From: Fredinandcohnia onubensis
GTDB taxonomy: Bacteria; Bacillota; Bacilli; Bacillales; Bacillaceae_L
Reading direction: 5' to 3'
DNA length: 64,000 nucleotides
NCBI RefSeq assembly: GCF_031181385.1
Contig: NZ_JAPSKV010000016.1
Location: 1-64,000 of the forward strand
The position numbers were made by a program, and so were the translations under genes. This document shows positions 42,281 to 60,480 of the stretch, piece after piece (within the stretch, counting starts at the first letter, position 1; every line of letters begins with the position of its first letter). The notes under the pieces are model-generated. The model did not search any database. It worked only from the letters and a program-made list of their open reading frames with translations, and was not told the origin of the DNA.

Positions 42281-42344
42281 GATGCCAAGCTTTTAAGCCA
42301 TCAAAAAATCTGTACTAATCGACCAGTTTCTCAAAAACCTATTT

Positions 42345-42422
42345 TCAATCAAACGTTTGTTTAACGGGTTACCTCAGTTGCATCAATGACTTGCAATTTC
42401 AATTAAACGTTTGTTTGAACGG
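42345..42422. promoter_or_regulatory. Paired AAACGTTTGTTT sites before the MFS gene
   Basis: Two copies of TCAAT-[C/T]-AAACGTTTGTTT-[T/G]-AACGG, at 42345-42366 and 42399-42422, about 54 bp apart. The dyad centre AAACGTTT and the size suit a TetR-family repressor. The same pair stands upstream of tetR at 49838 and 51502, where an insertion sequence has split the first copy. Confidence 0.6.
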
Positions 42423-42549
42423 AATTGATATTGTTAAGAAAGCGGAAATAGGAGCTGTACTAGTCGAAATTTGGTAACAAAGTATGGCTGATTTCACAGC
42501 ATGATGTGGCCTGCTAAAGGGGATTCTAGTATTAAAAGGGGGTTAATCT

Positions 42550-49787: not shown

Positions 49788-49837
49788 TGGATACGAAACA
49801 ATCTGTACTAATCGGCTATTTTCAAGAAAACCCATTT

Positions 49838-49857
49838 TCAAACAAGCGTTTGTTACG
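49838..49857. promoter_or_regulatory. Left part of an interrupted paired site
   Basis: TCAAACAAGCGTTTGTTACG; it aligns with the site at 42345 up to the GTTTGTT core, and the 37 bp before it (from atctgtactaatcg) also align with 42309-42344. The rest of the region continues at 51457. Confidence 0.6.
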
Positions 49858-49930
49858 TTTAGTCAAGTGGTTTTTCTTTAAAATTTCATAATATATATTG
49901 CTGTGGTTGTGGACTAAAAGAAAACATGAC

Positions 49931-49974
49931 AAATAGCCCTAGCTATTTACATTTTTTTGAATAGGGCTATATTT
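49931..49974 (-). terminator. Hairpin downstream of the transposase
   Basis: AAATAGCCCTA and TAGGGCTATaTTT pair around an AT-rich centre; it could end the transposase transcript. Confidence 0.4.
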
Positions 49975-49994
49975 GTGTTACTATGTATGTATGA

Positions 49995-51212
49995 CTATGA
50001 TTTGGTGGCTAGACGGTAATCATAGTTTAGGTTGTGGGTAACTAAAAAGAATATATTCTTTAATAGTTTATTCACACAAGCGATAGACGCAACTTTATGA
50101 CATTTGTTGTAGGGTTGCGTTTTTAATTTGTCATAGTAATCAACAATGTGATTGTTGCCAATTCTACGTAGTTTAATCATATTTTGGATTATGATGAAAA
50201 GCAGTTTTCGTAAGTGTTTGTTGCCACGTTTATTAATCTTATCTTTATAAAATGTTTTACCTGACTGGTATCTACGAATATCAATACCCGCGTATGCATT
50301 AAGCTGTTTATTGTTATTAAATCTAGTAATATCACCAATCTCCGCCATCAACCTTACGGCTGTGTTTGGGCCTATACCAGGAATGCTAAGAAGTATTTGA
50401 TACTCAAATCTCCTATCGGCTAAAGTGATCATTTTGTTTATACAAAATTCCTTCTGGTTTATTAACTCTTGATACCTTCCGGCATATACTCTAACTTGTT
50501 CACATAATACATCATCCGAAGATACGGCTGGATAGGATTTTTCAGCTGCTTCTAATAATTCTATGGCCTTCTTTTCTGCCCTATTTTTAGAAATATTTTT
50601 ATTTGTATTGGCTATTATTTTGTTTTTAATCACTGTCTTTGAGTGATTGAGTATTAAATCAGGGTGGGGAAATAATTGTACGATATTTAAAAATAGCTCC
50701 GATTTAGCTTTGAATATTGTCTCAATTTCTGGAAATGTTTCTTGTAGTACCTTATGCAATCTATTGCGAACTACTGTTAATGCGTCATCCAACTCACTAT
50801 AAAAGCGAGAAAGGGATTTTAGTTGTTCGAATGTTCTATCTGATGAATGTTTTATCTTTCTTTCCGCATTAAAATGGGTAAGAGCTAGTTGATGTGCATC
50901 ACTCTTATCAGTTTTATGTATTCGTAATGCATCACACTGGATTTTTGCCTCTAAAGGGTTTAATAAACAATAAGAATAATCGTTTTCTACCATAAACCTT
51001 TCGAGTGGTTTAGAGTACACTCCTGTTGACTCAAATACAATGTCAGGATATTCACCATAGCCCTGGTAGATTTGGTCAATTTTATTTTTAACGTTAATAA
51101 AACTAGGCCTATCATGTTGAATTTCCCCTTCAAATATACATTGTTTTAAAGGGTTATAGATAACCATATAACTTTTCCCCATACTAACATCAAACGCAAC
51201 TACATGCTTCAT
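49995..51212 (-). CDS. IS110 family transposase
   Basis: 405 residues. N-terminal RuvC-like DEDD domain: Asp8 in VVAFDVSMGKS, Glu in DIVFESTGVYS, and two Asp in HKTDKSDAHQLA. C-terminal Transposase_20 domain: LLSIPGIGPNTAVRLMAEIGD, LNAYAGID and a conserved serine region at FYKDKINKRGNKHLRKLL. The ATG at 51212 is preferred; the frame is open to 51281. It looks intact. Enzymes of this family are RNA-guided recombinases that work with a bridge RNA encoded at the element's non-coding end. Confidence 0.93.
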   Translation of the reverse strand: MKHVVAFDVSMGKSYMVIYNPLKQCIFEGEIQHDRPSFINVKNKIDQIYQGYGEYPDIVFESTGVYSKPLERFMVENDYSYCLLNPLEAKIQCDALRIHKTDKSDAHQLALTHFNAERKIKHSSDRTFEQLKSLSRFYSELDDALTVVRNRLHKVLQETFPEIETIFKAKSELFLNIVQLFPHPDLILNHSKTVIKNKIIANTNKNISKNRAEKKAIELLEAAEKSYPAVSSDDVLCEQVRVYAGRYQELINQKEFCINKMITLADRRFEYQILLSIPGIGPNTAVRLMAEIGDITRFNNNKQLNAYAGIDIRRYQSGKTFYKDKINKRGNKHLRKLLFIIIQNMIKLRRIGNNHIVDYYDKLKTQPYNKCHKVASIACVNKLLKNIFFLVTHNLNYDYRLATKS

Positions 51213-51259
51213 AGTAGAACCTTCTTCCCAATAAATTTGAAGTCTACATCTTACACTTA

Positions 51260-51450
51260 TCGATTCCCATTTCTTATACACGATCTCAAGGATCCAACAT
51301 ACTTAAACCTGATTCCCAAATAAGGTAAGCAAAGAAGACCAGTTTGTTATGACGGATTCAAAGATCCAAAACGCTTGTCGACCTATTCTTCACTTCTACT
51401 ATATAAAAAATAGTAGTGCGAACCAATGCCTTGGTCTGCACTACTAATCT
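51260..51450 (-). ncRNA. Candidate IS110 bridge RNA
   Basis: Non-coding DNA upstream of the transposase, read on the minus strand. ACAAGCGTTT (plus coordinates 51369-51378) and AACAAAC (51342-51348) flank a hairpin GGATctttgaATCC (51354-51367). The first equals the plus strand of the left flank (49843-49852), and the second is complementary to the plus strand across the same insertion point. Further on, AGTATGTT (51296-51303) equals the right element end (51452-51459). A strong hairpin AGTAGTGC/GCACTACT lies at 51412-51447. Ends are approximate. Confidence 0.55.
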
Positions 51451-51456
51451 TAGTAT

Positions 51457-51525
51457 GTTTGTTTAATGGGTTTTTCCTTATGTATCAATAAAAATGAGAA
51501 ATCAATTAAACGTTTGTTTGAATGG
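51457..51525. promoter_or_regulatory. Right part of the interrupted site and second intact site before tetR
   Basis: GTTTGTTTAATGGG at 51457-51470 completes the split first site; an intact TCAATTAAACGTTTGTTTGAATGG lies at 51502-51525. The spacing copies the MFS upstream pair to within one base. Both regions are followed by a [A/G]GCTGTACTAGTC element (51555 and 42452). Confidence 0.6.
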
Positions 51526-60341: not shown

Positions 60342-60390
60342 TATAGTACAATTTAAAATACTCTTTCTTTAATGAGTTAATTGAATAAGT

Positions 60391-60480
60391 AAGGGCAAAT
60401 TCATTGAAAGATGAAGACGCAAAACTATAGGGGCTAAAGTCCAAATGGACATGCCAGCCAGTTACCGAGTACAGCTCGTA
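60391..60480 (+). ncRNA. Cyclic di-GMP-I (GEMM) riboswitch aptamer
   Basis: Matches the GEMM-I pattern: GGGCAAA, then TTCAT-tGAAAg-ATGAA (P1b with GAAA loop), GACGCAAA, CTA-TAGGGGCTAAA, a variable stem GTCC/GGAC, then GCCAGCCAGTTACCG. These segments form the known three-helix c-di-GMP pocket and its tetraloop-receptor contact. With the terminator at 60493 it should control the downstream diguanylate cyclase. Confidence 0.9.

Follow-up and report, generated by a model that had tools for sequence, protein, structure and literature searches.

In a 64,000-nt stretch of the Fredinandcohnia onubensis genome (GCF_031181385.1, contig NZ_JAPSKV010000016.1, positions 1 to 64,000; hereafter the window), an insertion sequence of the IS110 family occupies 49852-51458 on the minus strand and, judging from its sequence and those of its relatives, very probably moves by bridge-RNA-guided recombination. 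We found that its bridge RNA, predicted to lie upstream of the recombinase gene, carries its target guides in the reverse of the IS621 order: in this element and its clade, the 5′ target guide follows the right-end flank, and its 3′ partner the left-end flank. On sequence evidence, the clade thus joins an IS110-type RNA position (upstream) with an IS1111-type guide order. We consider it likely that this represents a third bridge-RNA architecture, in which an upstream RNA gene is read from the junction of the ends as in IS621 and the target and donor frame is flipped, with the flip spanning the whole Bacillota clade, including ISSep2. The original prediction, which had proposed a bridge RNA from the letters of the window, did not mention that its guide order is opposite to that of IS621 and ISEc21, both of which have an upstream RNA.

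On the minus strand upstream of the gene, ACAAGCGTTT (51369-51378) and AACAAAC (51342-51348) flank a hairpin, GGATC-TTT-GAATCC (51354-51367), as had been described from the window. The first is the 5′ target guide, which complements the right-end flank on its transposase strand. Its plus-strand copy in the left flank of the window exists as claimed, one base away from where it had been placed (49842-49851 instead of 49843-49852), and the target half that it reads, ACAAGCGT (49842-49849, plus strand), is identical to the guide and is found in an uninterrupted site of a related genome (L126). The second is the 3′ target guide, which has the sense of the left-end flank and, as predicted, is complementary to the GTTTGTT (51457-51463) that spans the insertion point; the target half on this side, adjoining the core, lies at 51461-51468 (plus strand). 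On the window by itself, 26 of 2000 dinucleotide shuffles gave the non-coding end and the 30-nt joined site a match of 10 nt or longer (about 1 in 77); the earlier claim of a 10-base match unlikely by chance was therefore fair, yet the effect was modest.

The window match alone being modest, it is the relatives that make the case decisive. We scored 90 loci, the window included, with 50 distinct guide pairs, after leaving out own copies (L001, L002), duplicates (L062, L081, L069, L080), IS621 controls (L109-L113) and 13 loci with unparsed ends or hairpin (L012, L014, L019, L046, L050, L054, L056, L058, L059, L076, L077, L103, L107); L078, a truncated element whose 3′ side did not parse cleanly, was retained. 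Across these loci, the 5′ side of the first loop tracked the reverse complement of the flank at the transposase 3′ end with a longest shared run of 7.4 nt, compared with 3.8 nt for permuted pairs, a value reached in 0 of 20,000 permutations, and the 3′ side of the loop tracked the opposite flank (again 0 of 20,000). Most copies followed their own flanks, the behaviour by which the original prediction had proposed to be judged: at least 6 nt were common to the 5′ guide and its own flank at 58 of 75 sites, and 4 nt or fewer at 13. Fixed-register scoring of the 5′ guide was abandoned in favour of best-run and best-register scores, its signal being spread over registers, in our reading because the A-run beside the core varies in length.

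A further 11 loci came from viral contigs, four of them with a right flank usable by script. Three of these, which share one site (L186-L188), matched the right flank over 10 nt and the left flank, through the 3′ guide, over only 4 nt, and the fourth (L191) gave 4 and 6 nt, respectively. Where only a left flank was available, the 3′ guide matched over 8 nt in L184 and 4 nt in L185. Outside script scoring were L189, L190, L192, L193 and L183, the last of which, read by eye, gave a right-flank match of 9 nt and a left-flank match of 8-9 nt.

The matches could instead reflect a conserved repeat or operator sequence common to host and element, with no guiding role. The target is a palindrome within a multicopy repeat of the genus and similar GGCTG sequences are targeted by many relatives, as such an explanation would have it; in the relatives, both proposed target guides and the donor guide vary in step with flanks and ends, and we give the explanation next to no credence.

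The reversal of order under the bridge-RNA reading emerges from comparison with known systems. In the accessible text of PMC11208160, the 5′ guide of IS621 has the sense of the left flank and the 3′ guide is the reverse complement of the right flank. When IS621 copies were re-read, the 5′ guide ATCGGGCCT was found by eye to match the left flank ATCAGGCCT in sense, apart from one mismatch. Over 4-7 nt, the 3′ guide agreed with the reverse complement of the right flank in 4 of 4; in L113 the sense reading of that flank tied at 5. The exact-run script returned 5 nt (GGCCT) for the left flank in both directions and so did not decide, and it mis-extracted the 5′ guide of L113. As far as the available text of PMC11187229 goes, ISEc21, which like our element has an upstream non-coding region (NCR), shows the IS621 order, with the top-strand match 3′ of the bottom-strand match, whereas here it lies 5′; the IS1111 elements, with a downstream NCR, have the reverse order. 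Upstream RNA with reversed guide order is not described in the parts of these two founding papers that were available, and among the literature matches listed we recognised nothing on a reversed-order upstream bridge RNA or on terminator targets in the IS110 family, with preprints, figures and supplements outside the scope of that search.

The polarity is shared within the clade. ISSep2 and IS110-like elements of Lactobacillales belong to it, with the same ends and junction promoter and, where visible, the same polarity, although their recombinases are only 36-39% identical to ours and their 5′ guide matches are weak in several copies. At seven loci of this type (six Lactobacillales records and L101, on a Bacillus velezensis plasmid), the 3′ guide matched the left flank over 6-8 nt in 7 of 7, and the 5′ guide matched the right flank over 7-9 nt in only 3 and over 3-5 nt in the other 4. 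Plasmid IS110 elements of Peribacillus, Cytobacillus and Mesobacillus (L138, L140, L142-L146, L155) likewise come from Bacillales and have an upstream NCR and recombinases of 400-411 aa, but their polarity is of the IS621 type, with 6-8 nt on both guides at 7 of 7 scored loci (three distinct elements), and identity to our recombinase is 28% (L138, L140). ISRel25 and Paracoccus loci (L141, L152-L154), Peribacillus L147 and the Streptomyces, Pseudomonas and ISEc32 loci (L156-L158) lay outside polarity scoring. In a tree of 29 recombinases, which has long branches, the reversed-order elements formed one clade (20 rows, support 99/98); L156 and L158 were in this tree and L157 was not, and no row is known as IS1111, the group of ISEc32 not being established.

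A reversed order could also be only apparent, if the RNA were transcribed from the other strand. The hairpins would fold on both strands alike, in keeping with this, but both guides would then start with the core rather than end with it, unlike the loops of IS621. Moreover, the conserved junction promoter runs along the transposase strand. It consists of a -35 element, TTGACT, in the right end (49861-49866, minus strand) and a -10 element, TAAGAT, in the left end (51447-51452, minus strand), and is complete only with the ends joined. Joined ends yielded TTGAC[TA]-17 bp-TAA[GC]AT in 42 of 45 distinct elements, whereas the flank of integrated copies supplied at least 4 of the 6 bases of a -35 element at 17-bp spacing in only 3 of 84. 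The promoter therefore points to an RNA on the strand of the gene, and we regard transcription from the opposite strand as very improbable.

The comparative structure of the RNA fits a bridge RNA. In an alignment of 36 sequences, the 5′ stem-loop (51411-51446, minus strand) has 14 pairs, 5 of them changed on both sides; the target-binding loop and its stems (51329-51393, minus strand; helices 2-4) have 14 pairs, 6 changed on both sides; and the donor-binding loop and its stems (51256-51324, minus strand; helices 5 and 6) have 9 pairs, 6 invariant and 1 changed on both sides. RNAalifold returned 39 pairs, 12 with changes on both sides, and also paired the left end with the donor guide, a pairing that we take to reflect complementarity of guide and donor rather than a helix of the RNA. 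A structure that we specified by removing that helix and adding a donor-loop stem has 37 pairs, with 98.7% of cells paired compared with 29-50% when slid. Counting against the proposal, the single-sequence fold of 51210-51456 was unremarkable (z = -0.97) and left the guide segments outside the expected loops, so the original expectation of guides in loops failed there; it held in the comparative fold. Rfam gave zero matches within the element at gathering thresholds. In Bacillus testis (L012, about 1793-1830), most of the 5′ stem-loop is missing and the rest of the RNA aligns throughout.

The ends of the element were set by relatives and by an uninterrupted site in two genomes of the same genus, giving 1,607 bp between two core copies. 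From the relatives, the left end is ACATACTAAG and the right end TTGACT...CGTAAG, with AA adjoining each, except in L063, which has AG at the right end. In the window copy, both ends have seven bases in common, GTTTGTT (49848-49854 and 51457-51463), so that the core cannot be fixed from the window and rests on the relatives. Because those lacking a long A-run in the right flank read GTAAG-AA-G (L017, L039, L053) or GTAAG-AA-C (L037), and because at the other end AA stands directly before ACATAC, the core dinucleotide is probably AA on the transposase strand (TT on plus), two bases from the GT originally proposed, which we give up. It would lie at 49850-49851 on the right-end side, within the shared GTTTGTT, and at 51459-51460 on the left-end side. 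Because the guide-parsing script accepted only elements whose left end bore AA and whose right end bore A[AG], its counts are no test of the core. The uninterrupted site reads CATTTTCAAACAAGCGTTTGTTTAATGGG in L126 and differs by one base over that stretch in L127; the element thus has one half of this site on either side, and duplication is limited to the GTTTGTT shared by donor and target. The right end of the window copy is GTAAC-AA, in place of the GTAAG, GTAGG or GTAGA of the other 44 distinct elements; its C equals the neighbouring target base and could have arisen by mutation or be left over from repair.

Guides for the donor could be assigned as well. The 5′ donor guide, AGTATGTT (51296-51303, minus strand), is present where the original prediction had noted it and is the complement of the left end and part of the core. 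A second donor guide, which that prediction had not found, has since been located: TAAGAA (51271-51276, minus strand), with the sense of the right end and core. It is hard to spot because of the divergent right end of the window, to which it has one mismatch. Both donor guides follow the ends of their own element in nearly all distinct elements, the 5′ guides AGTATGT, AGAATGT and AGTAAGT going with left ends ACATACT, ACATTCT and ACTTACT, and the 3′ guides TAAGAA, TAGGAA and TAGAAA with right ends TAAG, TAGG and TAGA, except in L099. Among the 45 distinct elements, 33 right ends are TAAG, 6 TAGG and 5 TAGA, the remaining one being the window. The longest downstream run of the right end plus AA was 5-7 nt in all 44 non-window elements but one; it was TAGGAA or AGGAA in the 6 TAGG elements, TAGAAA in 4 of the 5 TAGA elements and only GGTA in L099. 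This search covered the second loop and the sequence beyond it at no fixed position, and short runs of the commonest TAAG type are therefore weak evidence singly.

Family membership followed from the recombinase and the layout of the element, of which a DNA search of its own genome found only this copy. The 405-aa recombinase (49995-51212, minus strand) matches PF01548 and PF02371 and scores 184.1 bits against NF033542 (NCBIfam cut-off 140), and it has the DEDD RuvC-like domain and the C-terminal serine domain of IS110 enzymes. D8, E61, D102, D105 and S317 are invariant in an alignment that includes IS621 and would correspond, from this alignment and the accessible text of PMC11208158, to D11, E60, D102, D105 and S241 of IS621. 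An AlphaFold model (mean pLDDT 83) retrieved the ISCro4 and IS621 bridge recombinases as top solved matches in Foldseek. The non-coding end is longer upstream of the gene (246 bp, 51213-51458) than downstream (143 bp, 49852-49994), as in IS110 and not as in IS1111 elements. The IS110 pattern also extends to the single GTTTGTT copy in the empty site, with no target duplication beyond the core, to two internal loops, one binding the target and one the donor, whose guides covary with these sequences, and to a promoter recognisable by sequence at the right-end/left-end junction. Like IS621 of Escherichia coli, the element thus has the recombinase domains, catalytic residues, upstream NCR, junction promoter and 5′ stem-loop, a target loop before the donor loop and two core-ending guides per loop, and it likewise leaves no target duplication. 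Unlike IS621, it has an AA/TT core (CT there), a recombinase of 405 aa instead of 326 aa (23% identity) and the reversed order. It appears to be a bridge-RNA element of known kind whose guide polarity is not described for its layout in the accessible literature.

The order itself departs from the IS110 type, in which the 5′ guide pairs with the bottom strand and reads in the same sense as the left-end flank, and places the top-strand match 5′ of the bottom-strand match, as the accessible text of PMC11187229 reports for the IS1111-type ISEc11, ISPa11 and ISKpn4. The element might accordingly descend from an IS1111-type ancestor whose NCR moved upstream, a possibility that we consider real and rather unlikely. 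An upstream region has been reported for ISMtsp17, an IS1111-type element (same source, the available text of which does not give the guide order of ISMtsp17), and by eye the ends share a 7-bp sub-terminal match, GATTAGT, at the lower limit of the 7-17 bp of IS1111 inverted repeats. This match occurs in part of the clade and is not maintained across it, however; ISEc11, ISPa11 and ISKpn4 have longer sub-terminal repeats and a downstream NCR where ours is upstream, and 405 aa stands against the 330-350 aa of IS1111 recombinases (both comparisons from the available text of PMC11187229). An IS110-type element with a flipped RNA remains the reading that we prefer.

From the covariation, structure, ends and empty site, we propose the following mechanism. 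Excision would join the right end, the AA core and the left end into a circle, whose junction would form the promoter TTGACT-17-TAAGAT and drive an RNA of about 200 nt across the left end and onward into the recombinase gene. The RNA would begin with a stem-loop at its 5′ end, followed by two internal loops, one for the target and one for the donor, each holding two guides. Covariation shows the 5′ target guide to be complementary to the right-end flank on its transposase strand, and the 3′ target guide to have the same sense as the flank of the left end; of the donor guides, the 5′ one complements the left end and the 3′ one is in sense with the right end. Both loops keep the IS621 layout, with guides running 5′ to 3′ towards the core and the core at their 3′ ends, and the target and donor frame as a whole is reversed relative to the gene, so that the "top" strand of the RNA is the strand opposite the transposase strand. 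The first cleavage would then fall 3′ of TT on the antisense strand, followed by exchange and resolution. In the frame of the RNA the core reads TT, and AA in that of the gene; IS621 favours a T as the second base of its core and also accepts TT (PMC11208158, accessible text), and the TT core may be taken as an independent, modest sign of the flipped frame.

The insertion site belongs to a repeat, about 165 bp long and containing two TTCAAACAAACGTTTGTTTGAA-kind palindromes, that recurs at several positions across the genus and has one further copy in the window. The repeat runs from CTGTACTAATC through the two palindromes to CTGTACTAGTC, with copies at 42304-42465, at 49796-49851 continuing from 51459 onwards, and at loci L126-L137. 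The window copies precede what we take from the translations to be an MFS-like transporter gene and a TetR-like and MMPL-like pair, and the repeat may serve as the operator region of a regulator or may be a miniature mobile element. ACAAGCGTTTGTT has 1 exact and 23 one-mismatch matches in its own genome, some of them one palindrome counted on both strands, compared with 10 for a control pattern. Targets of relatives are frequently intergenic and hairpin-forming. The idea that all sites are intrinsic terminators held in part: terminator-like hairpins occurred at 36 of 69 joined sites, compared with 66 of 412 points chosen at random within these loci, coding DNA included. An 8-mer inverted repeat at the right arm was present at 22 of 75 sites, compared with 71 of 1592 non-coding points. 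The target palindrome of the window is among the 36 terminator-like sites and outside those 22. Several copies lie at contig ends with one flank lost (L071 and L086, at G285:C37 and C42, and also L025-L035), and assemblies seem to break at the element. Elsewhere in the window, searches at gathering thresholds identified 5S rRNA (10-125), a purine riboswitch (2389-2490) and a c-di-GMP-I riboswitch (60384-60469).

If the flipped architecture holds, guide polarity and RNA position would be separable, though coupled in the elements described so far in the accessible literature, and the antisense strand would be predicted to be cut first. Guide order is among the features that separate IS1111-type from IS110-type RNAs in the available text of PMC11187229, where it is argued that the mechanisms may differ; a clade with the IS110 position and the IS1111 order would indicate that these features can be decoupled and may be an evolutionary intermediate. 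Target prediction and recombinase mining in Gram-positive IS110 elements would need to read the frame as flipped, or they would assign the wrong side of the element. Since guides vary between elements and the remainder of the RNA changes far less, the clade would offer many natural target reprogrammings.
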